Assembly (NCBI RefSeq): GCF_012034935.1
Contig: NZ_JAATEN010000002.1
Location: 372,001-436,000 of the forward strand
Direction: 5' to 3'
Source: Streptomyces zingiberis
Lineage (GTDB): Bacteria > Actinomycetota > Actinomycetes > Streptomycetales > Streptomycetaceae
Length of the DNA stretch: 64,000 nt
The position numbers and the translations under genes were made by a program. Positions 56,474-64,000 of the stretch are shown here, in pieces. The stretch's first letter is position 1. Each line of letters opens with the position of its first letter. The notes below the pieces were generated by a model. The model worked only from the letters and a program-made list of their open reading frames with translations, made no database searches and was not told where the DNA came from.

Positions 56474-56807
56474 TTCGCCTCCAGCTTGAGTCCGGGTGAG
56501 AGGCCGTCAGCGTGCCGAACCCCAGGTCAAAGCGCACTCAAGCCCTCCAGAGGCTCGGCGCCGGTTTTCGTTCCGATATTCCTCAACCCCCTCCGCTACC
56601 GTGACGGCGGCTCCTGGCACCTTCGCGCCGGCCGCCCGCGGCGGAACGGCGCCGTCCTTCACCACCCCCGTGGGCCCCATCCGTCAAGGCCCGTACCTAC
56701 TTTTCACCACATGGCGGCCAATGTCTTGGCGTGGCTCGCCGGAACCCCCGACGATCGCGGCGGGAGCGGGTGCGGAACCCCGCCGACGAGCAGGAGGGAC
56801 CACCGGC
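56474..56807. other. Intergenic region between the MFS and lectin-like genes
   Basis: These 334 bp contain a relatively AT-rich patch (56560-56710) that probably holds the promoter of the next gene. An open frame runs through but lacks family features. I could not define -35/-10 boxes. Confidence 0.5.
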
Positions 56808-57842
56808 ATGGCCGTATCCACGACGCCGGGAACGCGCTGGGGCGCCTGGACGAATCTGGGGGGCGCCCTGTTCTCGCCGCCCGCCCCGGTGCTCACCGCC
56901 GACCACCGTGTCCGCGTCTTCGTCCGGGGCGCCGCGAACTCCCTCTGGAGCCGCGCCCAGAACCGCGACACCACCTGGGGGGCCTGGCTCCGCCACGAGG
57001 GCGTGCAGGTCGCCGGGGTGCCCTGCCCGCTCCGGGGCCGGGACGGCCGGCACCGGATCTTCCACCGCACCCCCGGCGGCGGCCTCGCCGTCCTCACCCA
57101 GAGCACACCGCACTCCGCCGTCTACGGCCCGCCCCGCGTCCTGGTGGAGCGGATCGGCGGTGACCCGGCCGCGGTCCTGGGCGCCGACGGCCGGGCGCAG
57201 GTCTTCTTCCGCGGTGCCGACGGCGCTCTCTGGTGGAGCCGCGGCCAGGGACTCGCCGCCGAGGAGTACACGCGCCCGGCCCCGCTCGGCGGCGAACCGG
57301 ACACCACCCCGTCGCCCGTGCTGGACGCCTCGGGGCGGATCACCGTGGCCGTGCGGGACGGCGGCGGCGTCCTCCGCACCCTCACCCAGAAGACGGAGAA
57401 CTCCGGGAGCTGGGAGTCCTGGCGGCGCCACACCGCCGACGTGACCGGCCGTCCCGTGGCGGTGCTCGACGCCGCCGGGCGGGTGTGCGTCTTCCACCGC
57501 GGGGCGGACGGCTCACTCCGGCGGATCGGCCAGACCGACGACCACCAGGGGTTCCACCCCTGCGCGACCCTGCCGGGCGCCGTCCTCGGCGACCCCGCCG
57601 CCGCCCTGGGCCAGGACGGGCGGCTCCAGGTCTTCGCCCAGGGCACCGACGGGGAGCTGTGGCGGTCCGCGCAGACGGACGCGGGTTCCACGGCCTGGAC
57701 GGACTGGACCTCCCTGGCCGGGGCGGCGGTGGACTGCGCGGCCGTCGCCGGGGCCCGGAACCTCATCCACGTCCTCGGCCGGGGCCCGGGCGGAGCGGAG
57801 GGGGACCGGCACCTGCGGTGCCTCGCCGAACGCTGGACGTGA
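56808..57842 (+). CDS. PLL-like beta-propeller lectin-type protein
   Basis: This 344-residue protein is built from about seven repeats of 45-50 residues. Each contains a GWG/WGAW-type start, a PAxVLxxDGRxxVFxRGxDGxLW core and a Gln or Thr link (for example DHRVRVFVRGAANSLW, DGRAQVFFRGADGALWW, AGRVCVFHRGADGSL, DGRLQVFAQGTDGELW). This pattern matches seven-bladed propeller lectins of the PLL group, which bind fucose or other sugars. No signal peptide is visible, so export, if any, is by another route. ATG 56808 has AGGAGGG upstream; longer starts would add unrelated sequence. A terminator follows. Confidence 0.82.
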   Translation: MAVSTTPGTRWGAWTNLGGALFSPPAPVLTADHRVRVFVRGAANSLWSRAQNRDTTWGAWLRHEGVQVAGVPCPLRGRDGRHRIFHRTPGGGLAVLTQSTPHSAVYGPPRVLVERIGGDPAAVLGADGRAQVFFRGADGALWWSRGQGLAAEEYTRPAPLGGEPDTTPSPVLDASGRITVAVRDGGGVLRTLTQKTENSGSWESWRRHTADVTGRPVAVLDAAGRVCVFHRGADGSLRRIGQTDDHQGFHPCATLPGAVLGDPAAALGQDGRLQVFAQGTDGELWRSAQTDAGSTAWTDWTSLAGAAVDCAAVAGARNLIHVLGRGPGGAEGDRHLRCLAERWT

Positions 57843-58162: not shown

Positions 58163-58936
58163 CTACCGGGTTCCCGGCCCGGTGCCGGGGTTCCCGCCCG
58201 GGCCGGCCGCCCCCGGCTCCTCCGCGCCGGCGTCCCCGGTGGCCAGCAGCGTGACGACGGTCGAGCTCACGAGGCGGTGCCAGTCGCCGCCGCGGCGGAG
58301 CATGGCGTGGTCGCCGCCCGGCATCGGCACGGTGGAGGCCCGGGCGCCCGCGGCCCGGGCCCGGCGGGCGAACGCCGCCGACGCGCCGGGGTCGGTGATC
58401 CGGTCGCGGTCGCCGTGGACCACGACGACGTCCTTGCCCCGGAGATGGTCCACCGGTTCCCCCGGGGGACACCAGGGGGCCAGCGCCAGGACGGCCCGGA
58501 CCGCGGGCGCCGCCGCCGCGCCCAGCGCCGCCCGGCCGCCCATCGAGTGGCCGACCAGCACGACGGGGACGTCCCCGGCAAGGGCGGCGAGTTCCGTCAG
58601 GGCGCGCCGGGCGTCCCGCAGGGCGTCGGCCTCGGTGCCGTTCCAGCCCCGCAGCCGGTAACGCACCTCCGCCAGCAGGACACCGCCACCGCCGGGGACC
58701 CCACGGTCGTCCCCGCCCGCCGTCGCCGCCGCGACGGCCCGCACGAAGGGCCGCATCCGCAGGGCCGCCAGATGCCACGGCCGGGACGGGGCGCGGCTGT
58801 CGGACCGGCCGCCGTGCAGGAACACCACGGCCACCCGGGCCACCCGCGGCGCCCGGCGTATCACCAGGGCGGGCGCCGGCCGCACCGCCGCGGGGGCGGG
58901 TCCCCGTCCGTCACCGGTCACCGTCTCGCTCCTCAT
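58163..58936 (-). CDS. Alpha/beta hydrolase, last gene of the lipid operon
   Basis: This 257-residue hydrolase has the core strand VAVVFLHGGRSDS near residue 37, nucleophile motif GHSMGG (about residue 130), acid in VVHGDRDRITDP and His in GGDHAMLR. It may act as an esterase or thioesterase on lipid substrates, but this is inferred from context only. The ATG at 58936 overlaps the DUF1295 stop by four bases, so it belongs to the operon. Confidence 0.85.
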   Translation of the reverse strand: MRSETVTGDGRGPAPAAVRPAPALVIRRAPRVARVAVVFLHGGRSDSRAPSRPWHLAALRMRPFVRAVAAATAGGDDRGVPGGGGVLLAEVRYRLRGWNGTEADALRDARRALTELAALAGDVPVVLVGHSMGGRAALGAAAAPAVRAVLALAPWCPPGEPVDHLRGKDVVVVHGDRDRITDPGASAAFARRARAAGARASTVPMPGGDHAMLRRGGDWHRLVSSTVVTLLATGDAGAEEPGAAGPGGNPGTGPGTR

Positions 58937-59763
58937 CCGGACCGTGCCCCGTCCCGCCCGGCTGCCCTCCGGGGCGGCAGAGGGACGAAACCACTGGTCC
59001 GCGCCACGTATGCGGCGTAGCCGGGACGATCCGCCAAGTGCCGCTCCAGCAGCCGCTTCCCGCTGCCCTTGATCAGCAGGGCGCTCATCACCAGCGGGGA
59101 GACGAGCGTCAGCGCGGCCACCGCACCGGAGTCACAGGCGATCAGGTACAGACCCCACCACACGAGGAAGTCGCCGAAGTAGTTGGGGTGCCGGGTGTAG
59201 CGCCACAGCCCGCGGTCCATGATCCGGCCCCGGTTGGCCGGATCGGCCGTGAACCGCGCCAGCTGGGCGTCCCCCACGGCCTCGAAGAACAGGCCGAGCG
59301 CCCACAGACCGGCACCGGCCACGGCCACCGCCGACACGGGCCCGGGCACGTACTGCGCGGCCTGCACGGGGAGCGACACCAGCCACACCAGGGCGCCCTG
59401 GAGCAGATACACCGTGCGCAGCGCGTAGAGGTTCCGGTCGCCGGGGGCCCGGGCCAGCATCCGCTCGTAGCGTGGGTCCTCGCCGTGGCCGCGGCCACGG
59501 CGGGCGATGTGAAGGGCCAGCCGCAGCCCCCACACCGCGGTCAGCGCCGTCACCAGGAGGCGCCGCCCGGGGTCGCCGGTGCCCGCGGAGGCCCAGCAGC
59601 TCACCCCGGCGACCGCGGTGAACGCGAGCCCCCACGCGACGTCGACGATCCGGTGCACGCCCTTGCGCACGGCGACGGCGAAGGTGAGCAGCATGACGGC
59701 GAGGGCCGCCGCCCCGGCCCAGGCGAGGTTGACGGCGAAGTCGCCCCAGGGGAAGCCGGTCAC
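58933..59763 (-). CDS. DUF1295 membrane protein (steroid-reductase-like fold)
   Basis: This 276-residue integral membrane protein has about seven helices and the DUF1295 signature near the C terminus: LWRYTRHPNYFGDFLVWWGLYL (residues about 195-216). GKRLLERHLADRPGYAAYVARTSGFVP follows. The fold is shared with 3-oxo-5-alpha-steroid 4-dehydrogenases and isoprenylcysteine methyltransferases, so a reductase acting on a lipid double bond is plausible. The GTG at 59763 overlaps the upstream stop (GTGA). Confidence 0.9.
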   Translation of the reverse strand: MTGFPWGDFAVNLAWAGAAALAVMLLTFAVAVRKGVHRIVDVAWGLAFTAVAGVSCWASAGTGDPGRRLLVTALTAVWGLRLALHIARRGRGHGEDPRYERMLARAPGDRNLYALRTVYLLQGALVWLVSLPVQAAQYVPGPVSAVAVAGAGLWALGLFFEAVGDAQLARFTADPANRGRIMDRGLWRYTRHPNYFGDFLVWWGLYLIACDSGAVAALTLVSPLVMSALLIKGSGKRLLERHLADRPGYAAYVARTSGFVPLPPRRAAGRDGARSG

Positions 59764-61121
59764 CGCGCCACCAGTCCCCGGTACCAGTCCGCCGGCGCCG
59801 TGGGTGTGGCACCGCCGCGCCCCGCGCGCGTGGGCCGCACGCTCAGGATCTGGTCGACGCCCATGCGTCCCTCCTCGAAGGCGAGCGCGGCGCCGGCCAG
59901 GTACAGCCGCCACACCCGGGCCGTCTCCTCACCGACGAGCGCGGTGACGTCGGCCCAGCGGCTCTCCAGGGTGCCGTGCCAGGCGCTGATGGTGCGGACG
60001 TAGTCCTCGCGCAGCGATTCGGTGGAGCGAACCTCCAGCCCGGCCCGCTCCAGCAGCCCCACCGTCTCCCCGAGCGGGCGCATGTGCATGTCCGGCGCGA
60101 TGTACGCCTCGATGAACGCCCCGCCGCCCGGCGCCCGCCGGCCGCGGGACATCTGCTGGACGAGCACCCGGCCGCGCGGGCGTACCAGCCGGTGCAGGGC
60201 CGCGGCGAACGCCGGGTACTCGGCGTCCCCGACGTGCTCACCCATCTCGACGGTCGCCACCGCGTCGTAACCGGTGCGGGCGCCGTGCTCGCCCCGCTCG
60301 CCGGCCGCGAGGTCCCGGTAGTCCCGGCACAGCACCTCGACACGGTCGGTCAGCCCACGTTCCCGGACCTGTTCGCGCACGTACGCCGCCTGCTCCCGGG
60401 CGAGGGTGACGGCCGTGACCCGGGCGCCGTGCCGCTCGGCCGCGTACAGGGTGAGGGAGCCCCAGCCGCAGCCGATGTCCAGGAGGCGGCTGCCGCCGGA
60501 GCTGCCGGAACCTGCCGAGAGGCCCAGCTTGCGGCAGATCAGTTCCAGCTTGGCGTACTGGGCGGCGGCCGGGGTGAGGTCCGGCTCGCCGTCCGGCCAG
60601 TAACCGCAGGAGTAGGCCATGGTCTCGTCGAGCAGCAGCCGGTAGAACGCGTTGGACAGGTCGTAGTGGTGGCTGATGGCGGCCCGGTCACGGGCCTTGC
60701 TGTGCAGGCCGCCGCGGAGCCGTGCCTGGGAGGCCGGCGGCGCCGGGCGCGGTCCGACGGCGCCGAGCCGCACGGCCGTGCGGACCGCCCGGGCCCGGTC
60801 GCCGTAACCGGGGCGGAAGGCGCTCGCGCGCCGCTCCCGCGCGGCGGCCCACAGGGTGCGCAGCCCCTCGCCGAGATCGCCGTCCAGGTCCAGCTCGCCG
60901 GTCACGTACGCCTGGGCCAGGCCGAGTTCGCCGGGCGACCACAGCAGCCGGCGCAGGGCGCGGCGCGAGCGGAGCACCACGACGGGGCCGGAGAGCGGCC
61001 CCGCCTCGCTGCCGTCCCAGGCGCGCAGCCGCAGCGGGAGCGGGCCGCCGAGCGCGGTCTCGACGAGGGAGGCGAGCCGGGACGCGGCACCGGCGGGCCG
61101 GGGGGCGGGAACGGCACTCAT
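59760..61121 (-). CDS. Cyclopropane-fatty-acid-synthase-like methyltransferase 2
   Basis: This 453-residue SAM-dependent enzyme of the CFAS family acts on unsaturated acyl chains of phospholipids. It has an N-terminal lipid-binding region, the family motif AISHHYDLSNAFYRLLLDETMAYSCGYW (about 143-170), SAM motif I RLLDIGCGWGSLTLYAAE, and VEMGEHVG, where the Glu aligns with the bicarbonate-binding carboxylate. The end of the catalytic domain reads RVWRLYLAGAALAFEEGRMGVDQ, typical of the family. ATG 61121 overlaps the preceding gene by four bases. Why two CFAS-like enzymes are needed is a key question of this operon. Confidence 0.92.
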   Translation of the reverse strand: MSAVPAPRPAGAASRLASLVETALGGPLPLRLRAWDGSEAGPLSGPVVVLRSRRALRRLLWSPGELGLAQAYVTGELDLDGDLGEGLRTLWAAARERRASAFRPGYGDRARAVRTAVRLGAVGPRPAPPASQARLRGGLHSKARDRAAISHHYDLSNAFYRLLLDETMAYSCGYWPDGEPDLTPAAAQYAKLELICRKLGLSAGSGSSGGSRLLDIGCGWGSLTLYAAERHGARVTAVTLAREQAAYVREQVRERGLTDRVEVLCRDYRDLAAGERGEHGARTGYDAVATVEMGEHVGDAEYPAFAAALHRLVRPRGRVLVQQMSRGRRAPGGGAFIEAYIAPDMHMRPLGETVGLLERAGLEVRSTESLREDYVRTISAWHGTLESRWADVTALVGEETARVWRLYLAGAALAFEEGRMGVDQILSVRPTRAGRGGATPTAPADWYRGLVAR

Positions 61122-62401
61122 CGGGCGGCCTCCTTGGTGAACGCGTACTGCTGGACGTCGAGGTAGCCCGAGCGGAACCCGGCCTCCGAGTAGGCGAGGT
61201 AGAAGGTCCACATGCGGCGGAAGGTGGCGTCGAAGCCGAGGGCGTCCACCTCGTCCGCCCGCTCGGTGAAGCGTTCGCGCCACAGCCGCAGCGTTTCGGC
61301 GTAGTGCGGGCCGAAGGCGTCCCGGTGGGCGAGGGCCAGCCCGGTGTGCTCGCCCACGGTCCGCTCGATCGCCTCGGTGGAGGGGATCTGGCCGCCGGGG
61401 AAGATGTACTTGGAGATCCAGGTGAAGGTGGACCGGGCGGCCAGCATCCGCGCGTGCGGCATGGTGATGGCTTGCAGGGCCACCCGGCCCCCGGGGGCCA
61501 GCCGCGCGTCGAGGGTACGGAAGTAGGCCGGCCAGAACTCCACGCCCACGGCCTCGATCATCTCCACGCTCACCACGGCGTCGTACCGGCCGCGGACCTC
61601 GCGGTAATCGCGCAGTTCGACGGTGACCCGGTCCGCGAGACCGGCCGCGGCGACGCGCTCCCGGGCGAGGTCGCGCTGCTCGCGGGAGAGGGTGACGGAG
61701 GTGACGCGGGCCCCGCGCGCGGCGGCGCGGATCGCCAGCTCGCCCCAGCCGGTGCCGATCTCCAGCACGGTGCTCCCCTCCCGCACCTCCGCCAGGTCCA
61801 GCAGCCGGTCGATCTTGCGCTGCTGGGCGGCGGCGAGCAGGTCCCGGTGGGCGGGGAACCCCCGGAAGACGGCCGAGGAGTAGCTGAGGGTGGCGTCGAG
61901 GAAGAGCCCGAACAGCTCGTTGGACAGGTCGTAGTGGCGGCTGATGTTGTCCCGGGAGCCACCCGGGGTGTTGCGCTGGGCGTCCGGCCGGCGCGGTGCC
62001 CACAGTCCGCGCAGCCGCTGCATCGGGCCGGGGATCAGCCGGTCCGCGTGGCCGGCCAGCACGGTGAGGACGGCGACCAGGTCGGGGGAGTCCCACTCGC
62101 CGGCCATGTACGACTCGCCGAAACCGACCAGCCCCTGGCTGCCGATCCGGCCGTGGAACGCCGCCGGGTCGCGCACGTCCAGCAGCGGCCCGCCCTTGCC
62201 CGCCGGGGCGCCGCCGGCGAACCGCACCCGCAGCGGCAGCCGGTCCAGGGAGCGGCGGAGGACGGCCGCGGTGAGGGCGGTCCGCGCGGCGGAGGACCGC
62301 GGCGGGGCGGCCACGTCCGGCCAGCGGGCCGCGTCGACGGTGGCGCGGCCCACGGGGACGGCGCGCGGCGGGACGGCGGGCCGGGGACGGGTGGTACTCA
62401 T
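61118..62401 (-). CDS. Cyclopropane-fatty-acid-synthase-like methyltransferase 1
   Basis: This 427-residue CFAS-family enzyme has an N-terminal domain with GESYMAGEWDSPDL (about 95-108), motif NISRHYDLSNELFGLFLDATLSYSSAVF (about 152-179), SAM motif I VLEIGTGWGELAIRAA, and SVEMIEAVG with the conserved Glu. The C terminus ends in YLDVQQYAFTKE. It differs clearly from the second enzyme (30-40% by eye), so they are not recent duplicates. It is translated by four-base overlaps with DUF1365 upstream and CFAS-like 2 downstream. It could methylate or cyclopropanate acyl double bonds. Confidence 0.92.
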   Translation of the reverse strand: MSTTRPRPAVPPRAVPVGRATVDAARWPDVAAPPRSSAARTALTAAVLRRSLDRLPLRVRFAGGAPAGKGGPLLDVRDPAAFHGRIGSQGLVGFGESYMAGEWDSPDLVAVLTVLAGHADRLIPGPMQRLRGLWAPRRPDAQRNTPGGSRDNISRHYDLSNELFGLFLDATLSYSSAVFRGFPAHRDLLAAAQQRKIDRLLDLAEVREGSTVLEIGTGWGELAIRAAARGARVTSVTLSREQRDLARERVAAAGLADRVTVELRDYREVRGRYDAVVSVEMIEAVGVEFWPAYFRTLDARLAPGGRVALQAITMPHARMLAARSTFTWISKYIFPGGQIPSTEAIERTVGEHTGLALAHRDAFGPHYAETLRLWRERFTERADEVDALGFDATFRRMWTFYLAYSEAGFRSGYLDVQQYAFTKEAAR

Positions 62402-63189
62402 GTCACGTTCTCCGGGGTGTGATCGTGGCCGGGGCGTCGCGCGGGGCGGGGGTCACCGGGACCGGGCCGGTCCGGGCGGCTCCGGGCGGGACGGGGCTGT
62501 ACGGGAAGTCCCCGCAGATACAGCCGGATGCCGTGCATCCGGATGGCCGCCGAGACGGCGAGCGTCGACCACGGCCGGCGCAGCGCCAGCCGCAGCAGCG
62601 TGCCCGCGCGGGCCGGGCGGCGCGTGCCGCGCACGGTCGCGGTGAGCGGCCGCCCGCCGTCCCGTTCGAGCTGCACGGTGAGGTCGAGCCGGTCGCCGGG
62701 GACGGGGACGCGCATCCGGTAGCGGCCGTCGACGGGGAAGAACGGCGAGACGTAGAGCTCCTTGCCGGCTTCGGCCCGTCCCGTCGCGTCCGGGCGGAGC
62801 AGGTAGGAGTGGCGCCCGCCGTAGGTGTTGTGCACCTCGGCGACGACACAGCGCGGCTCGCCGCCGGGACCGTGACACCAGTAGAGGGTGAGCGGGTTGA
62901 ACACGTGGCCGAAGACCCGGGCGTGGGTGAGCATCAGCACGGACCCGCCGTCGAGCTCCACGCCGTGGGCGGCGAGGAAGGCGTCGAGCCCCGCGCGGAG
63001 GGACGGCCCCTCGCCGCCGAAGTGGTCCCGGGCGTCGAAGCGCGCCAGCGGGCGCAGCCAGAAGGGCAGCCGGGGCGGGTGGTCGGGGTCGATCAGCCAC
63101 AGGTGGGTGCGGTGCCGCAGGGCGTAGCGGAAGGGTGTCGTCCGCACATGGCCGATGGTGCACGGGTACAGGGCCGGCGCGGTCGTCAC
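62398..63189 (-). CDS. DUF1365-family protein
   Basis: This 263-residue protein has the DUF1365 signatures: TPFRYALRHRTHLWLID near residue 18, the HARVFGHVFNPLTLYWC segment (about 87-103) and VHNTYGGRHSYLL. DUF1365 genes are almost always found between an amine-oxidase-like flavoprotein and a CFA synthase, in proteobacteria and actinobacteria, as here. The molecular role is not established; an acyl-carrying or accessory role has been suggested. GTG 63189 forms a GTGA overlap with the oxidase stop; GTG 63192 is also possible. Confidence 0.92.
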   Translation of the reverse strand: MTTAPALYPCTIGHVRTTPFRYALRHRTHLWLIDPDHPPRLPFWLRPLARFDARDHFGGEGPSLRAGLDAFLAAHGVELDGGSVLMLTHARVFGHVFNPLTLYWCHGPGGEPRCVVAEVHNTYGGRHSYLLRPDATGRAEAGKELYVSPFFPVDGRYRMRVPVPGDRLDLTVQLERDGGRPLTATVRGTRRPARAGTLLRLALRRPWSTLAVSAAIRMHGIRLYLRGLPVQPRPARSRPDRPGPGDPRPARRPGHDHTPENVT

Positions 63190-64000
63190 CACCGCACCCC
63201 CAGCGCCGCGGCGGCCCGCACCCCGGAGCGGCAGCCGTCCTCGTGGAAGCCCCAGCCGTGGTAGGCGCCCGCGAACGCGGTGACGGCCGTGTCCAGCTCG
63301 GGCAGGAACTGCTGCGCGGCGACCGACTCCGGGGTGTAGACCGGGTGTTCGTACTCCATGCGGGCGAGGACCCGCCCCGGGTCCACGCGGTCACCACCGC
63401 CCAGGGTGACGACGTAGGTCTCGGGGGCGTCCAGCCCTTGGAGCCGGTTCATGTCGTAGCTGACCCGGACGCGGTCGGCGCCCGCCCCGCACGAGGGCAT
63501 CAGGTAGTTCCACGAGGCGCGGGCGGCGCGGGAGCGGGGGAGGAGCCCGGTGTCGGTGTGCAGCAGCGTGCTGTTGCGCCCGTACCGGAAGGCGCCCAGC
63601 ACCTCCTTCTCCCGTGGGGTGGCGTCGGCCAGCAGCTCCAGCGCCTGGCCGGGGTGGACGGCCACGACCACCGCGTCGTAGGAGTCGGTGGTGCCGTCGT
63701 CCGCGGTGACCTCCACCCCGTCCGGGTGGCGCCGCACGGCCCGGACGGGCGTCCCGGCGCGCACGGCGTCCAGCCGCTCGGCGACCCGGCCGACGTAGGT
63801 CCCCGAACCGCCCGTCACGGTGCGCCAGAGCGGGGAGCCGCTCACGGACAGCAGCCCGTGGTGCGCCAGGAAACGGAAGAGGTAGGCGGCCGGATAGCGC
63901 CCGGCGGTGGTGGCGTCGCAGGACCACACCGCCGACACCAGCGGGGTCATGAAGTGGGTGCGGAAGTACCGGGAGAAGCCCTCGCGGTCGAGGAACGCGT
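63186..64000 (-). CDS. FAD-dependent amine-oxidase-like protein (5' end outside window)
   Basis: The visible 271 residues are the C-terminal half of a flavin-containing amine-oxidase/desaturase-like protein. Conserved parts are MTPLVSAVWSCDATTAGRYPA, GGSGTYVGRVAERL, the DAVVVAVHPGQALELL segment and the FAD-closing GAYHGWGFHEDGCRSGV near the end. In other bacteria this gene type clusters with DUF1365 and CFA-synthase-like genes, and one member (UfaO-like) helps make furan fatty acids. The ADP-binding N terminus lies beyond 64000. The operon reads from it into DUF1365 with a four-base overlap. Confidence 0.9.
   Translation of the reverse strand, partial: AFLDREGFSRYFRTHFMTPLVSAVWSCDATTAGRYPAAYLFRFLAHHGLLSVSGSPLWRTVTGGSGTYVGRVAERLDAVRAGTPVRAVRRHPDGVEVTADDGTTDSYDAVVVAVHPGQALELLADATPREKEVLGAFRYGRNSTLLHTDTGLLPRSRAARASWNYLMPSCGAGADRVRVSYDMNRLQGLDAPETYVVTLGGGDRVDPGRVLARMEYEHPVYTPESVAAQQFLPELDTAVTAFAGAYHGWGFHEDGCRSGVRAAAALGVRW

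Follow-up and report, generated by a model that had tools for sequence, protein, structure and literature searches.

What does an organism make with two distinct enzymes of the cyclopropane fatty acid synthase (CFAS) type when both are encoded in one tightly packed operon? The question is raised by the end of a 64,000-nucleotide stretch of Streptomyces zingiberis DNA (hereafter the window), in which six minus-strand genes encode an oxidase that uses flavin adenine dinucleotide (FAD), a DUF1365 protein, two CFAS-like methyltransferases (CFAS1 and CFAS2), a DUF1295 membrane protein and an alpha/beta hydrolase. We read the operon as an actinobacterial form of the furan fatty acid system that has recruited another methyltransferase, gained a reductase-like partner and probably come under SigK-type control, and this explanation as a whole appears moderately likely. 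The product would likely be membrane phospholipids with methylated furan acyl chains, and their likely function a membrane shield against light-driven oxidation.

The layout is as originally predicted: all five junctions are 4-nt overlaps (GTGA, ATGA, ATGA, GTGA and ATGA), provided that the DUF1365 gene starts at 63189, and the true starts of CFAS2 and DUF1295 lie downstream of those implied by the longest open reading frames (ORFs). The oxidase gene runs past the end of the window; its start, at about 64505 in the same numbering, lies some 505 nt outside.

The oxidase, DUF1365 and CFAS1 genes

In Rhodobacter sphaeroides, UfaM methylates vaccenate, the product of this step is the substrate of the desaturase UfaD (RSP1091, an FAD protein), and the DUF1365 protein UfaO (RSP1090) is both needed and enough for conversion of the methyl-diene to the furan acid, the oxygen of which comes from O2; in Rhodopseudomonas palustris RPA2571-2570-2569 are the same three enzymes and are sufficient (PMC7380195, in part). 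Halomonas UfaM expressed in Escherichia coli yields 11-methyloctadec-12-enoate (PMC12089945, in part). The window proteins were compared with those of equivalent loci fetched from named relatives of the studied R. sphaeroides and R. palustris strains. The oxidase (PF01593, 105 bits; its 3' part at 63186..64000, minus strand, with the stop at 63186) is 37.8% identical to UfaD of Rhodopseudomonas and 38.5% to that of Cereibacter johrii, and the DUF1365 protein (PF07103, 220 bits; 62398..63192, minus strand, GTG start at 63192 or 63189) is 36.9% identical to UfaO of either. CFAS1 (PF02353, 289 bits; 61118..62401, minus strand), a methyltransferase of the S-adenosylmethionine (SAM) type, shares 41.3% (267 bits) and 42.5% (268 bits) identity with the respective UfaM proteins, 33% (163 bits) with E. 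coli Cfa and 40.8% over 284 residues (179 bits) with a Rhodopseudomonas CFA.

In a carefully built tree of 44 selected proteins, two of which (E. coli Cfa and one row of UfaM type) drew long-branch warnings, CFAS1 falls inside the UfaM clade with support of 99/97, and a quick tree of 148 rows agrees on the placement of CFAS1, CFAS2 and FufM, the methylase of dimethyl furan acids. CFAS1 also carries the UfaM-type residues E236, A240 and Q266 (E. coli Cfa numbering, used throughout). Since the oxidase, DUF1365 and CFAS1 genes correspond to the furan set and CFAS1 lies in the UfaM clade, a furan product is favoured over a mid-chain methyl branch or a plain cyclopropane; the suggested relation to furan systems holds and, from the three candidate products named in the original prediction, the furan is preferred. 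The role of DUF1365, which had been given as unknown, can likewise be revised, as this is the family of UfaO, which forms the furan with O2 (PMC7380195, in part). By analogy, CFAS1 would methylate an unsaturated chain, the oxidase would form a methyl-diene from it by desaturation, the DUF1365 protein would close the ring with O2, and we think it probable that these three enzymes make furan fatty acids. In another genome (G360; L198:5217-9266) the oxidase, DUF1365 and CMAS domains occupy one 1350-codon stop-to-stop frame, which resembles the plant UfaM/UfaD fusion but also includes DUF1365.

The grouping recurs. Of 150 genomes sampled from the genus 55 have DUF1365, as do 70 of 396 sampled from the phylum. 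The same-genus sample comprised 61 DUF1365-bearing loci, the window locus and 60 fetched ones, with four rows omitted (G439 at a contig edge, and fragments in G483, twice, and G532:C5); the oxidase, DUF1365 and CFAS1 occur together in 58 of the 61, more than expected by chance, and these 58 are referred to as core loci. Among them CFAS2 is found in 33 (with a fragment in two more), DUF1295 in 55 (its frame broken in two, L153 and L190) and a relative of the hydrolase in 14. A further 19 loci of the same class contain the core in 11 cases, CFAS2 in 3 and DUF1295 in 7, and the series oxidase-DUF1365-CFAS1-CFAS2-DUF1295 is seen in six loci of four other families (L284-L289), which were picked for their paired CFAS genes. 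The window operon is therefore a recurrent actinomycete set with a hydrolase added. Partial sets were also noted: seven loci (L204-L207 and L209-L211) have DUF1365 near a SigK-like gene and lack oxidase or CFAS1 matches, being possible operon remnants, and in L283:6437-9396 a CFAS1-CFAS2 pair lies beside a SigK-like gene with no oxidase or DUF1365 in the fetched stretch; the same genome carries a separate oxidase-DUF1365-CFAS1-DUF1295 operon (L155).

The second methyltransferase and its DUF1295 partner

CFAS2 (PF02353, 236 bits; 59760..61121, minus strand) has another origin. In the 44-protein tree it forms one clade (100/96) within a group of actinobacterial CFA and BfaB-like proteins (100/100), outside both the UfaM clade and the FufM clade, which stands apart (100/100). 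With the CFA of the same genome it shares 46.9% identity, and its closest named relatives are Streptomyces proteins with up to 80% identity. From this placement we infer that CFAS2 derives from an actinobacterial cyclopropane synthase that was recruited to the set.

In order to compare active sites, seven positions were aligned to E. coli Cfa (139, 236, 239, 240, 266, 268 and 317), of which C139, E239, H266, I268 and Y317 are bicarbonate ligands of cyclopropane fatty acid synthase. The window CFAS2 reads C139, E236, E239, H240, Q266, M268 and Y317, and in 37 CFAS2 rows, leaving out three fragments and nine duplicate loci, E236, E239, H240, Q266 and M268 are invariant and C139 is kept in 35. 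The CFA set (C139, G236, E239, H240, H266, I268, Y317) is thus altered at three places. Eight BfaB-like proteins, two Rhodopseudomonas CFAs and E. coli Cfa all read CGEHHIY, and the five solved family members shown, out of 42 matched, have Gly at 236 and His at 266. The best 30 relatives of the genome's own CFA include 27 CFAs, with G236 and I268 in 27 of 27 and H266 in 26; the other three adjoin CFAS1 or DUF1295 and carry E-Q-M. UfaM-type rows (n = 98) have E236 and Q266 throughout and A240 in 96, and all seven FufM-type rows have E236 and H266. Glu236 is therefore common to the three furan-linked methyltransferase groups, and CFAS2 has it whereas its nearest relatives do not. One CFA, in L263, combines Gln at 266 with Gly at 236 and may represent an intermediate stage of this change.

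These residues bear on a simpler explanation, namely that CFAS2 is an ordinary cyclopropane synthase riding along, so that part of the chains would become furan acids and part cyclopropane acids, with DUF1295 an unrelated housekeeping protein. Its descent from CFA and its retention of C139, E239 and H240 agree with this, but the exchange of G, H and I for E, Q and M is uniform in CFAS2, all three CFA residues being present in 26 of 27 sampled CFAs, and the genome has a separate standard CFA gene (G000:C9). Moreover, CFAS2 adjoins CFAS1 in the fetched loci, except in L290 (the same as L273), where it is beside DUF1295, with the proviso that the loci were mostly chosen for DUF1365 and lone copies could be missed. 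We consider this explanation unlikely, and the changes at 236, 266 and 268 speak against simple cyclopropane synthesis by CFAS2. BfaB-like enzymes make a methylene acid; since they keep the CFA residues despite this product, we read the changes in CFAS2 as a sign of a new substrate and not as proof against ring formation.

The simplest new substrate is predicted to be a furan or a diene, as for FufM, and CFAS2 may add the second methyl group, which is the job of FufM in Rhodopseudomonas; from its clade and residues we assign it only tentatively as a second furan methylase. FufM itself is absent among the seven PF02353 matches of the window genome, which score at most 98 bits as compared with at least 434 bits for FufM-clade rows. 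Elsewhere in Actinomycetota, FufM-clade methylase genes were seen inside ufa operons in four of the 21 such loci fetched (L217, L222, L224 and L229), so FufM is not limited to alphaproteobacteria.

The DUF1295 protein (PF06966, 232 bits; 58933..59763, minus strand) belongs to a family that Pfam lists as of function unknown, but it has a steroid-5-alpha-reductase-like fold and is related in sequence to the steroid 5-alpha-reductase and sterol reductase superfamily. The presence of a second CFAS-like enzyme together with a steroid-reductase-like protein in what looks like a co-transcribed fatty acid modification set, as first proposed, holds. A gene of this family lies directly before fufM in four of four Rhodopseudomonas genomes, and in the phylum sample, with kinship ignored, DUF1295 occurs in 58 of 70 genomes with DUF1365 against 94 of 326 others. 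We rather favour a reductase, which would act with NADPH on a C=C bond of a pathway intermediate or of an oxidised furan.

A reductase beside a methyltransferase would also suit a mid-chain methyl-branch pathway, in which CFAS2 and DUF1295 make 10-methyl acids as BfaB and its reductase do and the ufa genes form a separate furan branch. In addition to the fold, this is in line with the presence of DUF1295 in all 33 core loci with CFAS2 and with the BfaB-like proteins belonging to the same larger clade. However, 21 of the 23 core loci that lack CFAS2 still have DUF1295, the DUF1295 gene adjoins that of a furan methylase in Rhodopseudomonas, and the BfaB-like proteins form a clade of their own with unchanged CFA residues. 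The window oxidase is of the PF01593 family and not of PF01565, the family of the BfaA-like neighbours (confirmed by Pfam for two of the eight BfaB-like proteins and by eye for five more); by eye only, no PF01565-type partner was recognised beside the genome's own CFA. The mid-chain methyl branch, which the original prediction had put forward, is accordingly disfavoured in its tuberculostearic form, and this pathway is quite unlikely.

The last gene of the operon encodes an accessory alpha/beta hydrolase (Hydrolase_4, 41 bits; 58163..58936, minus strand), which might trim damaged chains. On the downstream side, a 448-residue ORF at 56496-57842 on the plus strand is convergent with the operon; internal repeats can be seen by eye and no Pfam match was found.

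SigK, RskA and a promoter-like motif

A sigma/anti-sigma pair had been suggested as something to look for beyond position 64000. No SigK-like ORF was found in the window or in L008, the 11 kb that follow, but a pair does exist on another contig of the genome. A ChrR-like or other sigma ORF was not found in L008 either, and no pair of ChrR and an ECF11 factor (a sigma factor of the extracytoplasmic function, ECF, type) was seen nearby; this pair is a trait of the alphaproteobacterial version and not of furan chemistry. For 35 of the 58 core loci the DNA fetched includes a SigK-like ECF sigma gene, and in L156 an ORF resembling the RskA anti-sigma factor by eye follows it. The SigK ortholog of the window genome, encoded on contig C1 (C1:177104-177643), is 80% identical over 180 residues to the sigma factor near a relative's operon (308 bits, the next best being 80), and its gene is adjoined by those of a protein with an RskA_C match (108 bits), a molybdopterin oxidoreductase and a fasciclin lipoprotein. 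In that region (L295:10093-12826) the molybdopterin oxidoreductase-domain protein and the fasciclin lipoprotein are encoded upstream of sigK-rskA and are preceded by two SigK-type motifs in divergent orientation.

Upstream regions of 32 sigma-bearing loci, the window locus excluded, have CCAATCC and CGAAT or CGGAT blocks in common. The 6.5 Mb assembly contains the strict pattern CCAATCC-N16-CGRAT three times, about 0.7 chance matches being estimated from base composition, and its reversed form not at all. One match, at 64543-64570, is about 40 nt before ufaD; the second is 3.1 kb from sigK and beside a copy with 17-nt spacing that is oriented toward the molybdopterin, fasciclin and sigK genes; the third is about 110 nt before the start of a nonribosomal peptide synthetase (NRPS) gene. 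A relaxed motif occurs 76 times in 90 loci against 2.0 expected from shuffles, although the loci are not independent, and the 42 loci that have it are all of the same genus. In 29 of the 58 core loci it is on the right strand less than 400 nt from the oxidase, 98-152 nt before the Rossmann motif in 27 of these, and in 12 of the 58 it is on the opposite strand.

Two observations weigh against this picture. The motif is missing before ufaD in the other 29 core loci. The strict copy near sigK is oriented away from it, toward the end of a restriction-endonuclease-like gene, which slightly lowers the odds of SigK control. In Mycobacterium kansasii two fasciclin genes of the SigK regulon are induced by light, 6- and 3-fold, and dipZ is not, SigK control being the authors' suggestion; no ufa-like gene is among the rows covered here (PMC9861118, in part). 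On balance, SigK-type control of the operon seems reasonably likely, in which case the SigK/RskA-type pair encoded elsewhere in the genome would switch it on.

Upstream of the operon on the contig, at about 64670-78640 and reading toward it on the same strand, are a cation diffusion facilitator (CDF) exporter, an ATP-binding cassette (ABC) transporter and the large NRPS gene (L008, L299). The NRPS cluster may share SigK-type control or, given the expected number of chance matches, its motif may be fortuitous. The same neighbourhood would allow the set to have drifted to another substrate, for instance an acyl chain for the NRPS product and not membrane phospholipid, and it is the NRPS gene that carries one of the three strict matches; but the operon has a motif copy of its own and a chance match is not surprising, and we regard such a drift as improbable.

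Proposed function and comparison with known systems

For this organism both the regulation and every chemical step are inferred from gene content, overlaps, clades, active-site residues, the promoter-like motif and co-occurrence. A broader proposal can be made, that the SigK/RskA switch of actinobacteria is a response to singlet oxygen (light) whose main output is a rechargeable furan lipid shield. UfaM, UfaD and UfaO would build furan chains, CFAS2 would dimethylate them and make them more reactive with singlet oxygen, and DUF1295 would reduce the ene-dione left after trapping to a 1,4-diketone able to re-close to the furan. A module of UfaM/UfaD, UfaO, FufM or CFAS2, DUF1295 and fasciclin would then be common to actinobacteria, alphaproteobacteria and green algae. 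Taken jointly, these claims are speculative and unlikely to hold in full. In six of six alphaproteobacterial plasmid loci with the oxidase and DUF1365 a sigma/anti-sigma pair adjoins, with a fasciclin gene in two and a DUF2177 gene in four. In Chlamydomonas, CFA1, CFA2, the fasciclin FAS2, DUF1365, DUF2177 and DUF1295 are all in the list of 104 SAK1-dependent singlet-oxygen genes, orthology not being established, and the Arabidopsis relatives of UfaM/UfaD, UfaO and FufM are on lipid droplets (PMC10940516, in part).

The main value of the finding is that, by linking a furan operon with a SigK-type motif and a SigK-fasciclin locus, it opens the role of the SigK regulon and the signal behind it to experiment. 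The DUF1295 family is given a place in a pathway and a likely kind of reaction, and a second and independent way to dimethyl furan acids is suggested, with CFAS2 standing in for FufM.

The closest known systems are the UfaM-UfaD-UfaO sets of Cereibacter (Rhodobacter) sphaeroides and R. palustris, with which the operon shares three enzyme families and, in the case of Rhodopseudomonas, the gene order D-O-M; it differs in its phylum, in the addition of CFAS2, DUF1295 and the hydrolase, and in the predicted SigK/RskA-type control. CFAS2 resembles FufM (the RPA0924 family) as a second PF02353 SAM methyltransferase added to a furan set, linked with a DUF1295 gene and having Glu236, but it is from another clade. 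The BfaAB pathway to 10-methyl stearic acid likewise has a PF02353 methyltransferase acting on oleoyl chains; its BfaA-like proteins are of PF01565 whereas the window oxidase is of PF01593, and CFAS2 and the BfaB-like proteins are separate clades. Finally, the SigK-like, RskA-like and fasciclin lipoprotein genes of the window genome recall the mycobacterial SigK regulon with its mpt83-sigK-rskA cassette and Rv0449c promoter (PMC7509140, in part), and in relatives such as L199, which appears to be Mycobacterium-like, the series oxidase-DUF1365-CFAS1-DUF1295 runs into a SigK-like gene, whereas in the window genome sigK and the operon are on different contigs and CFAS2 is part of the operon.

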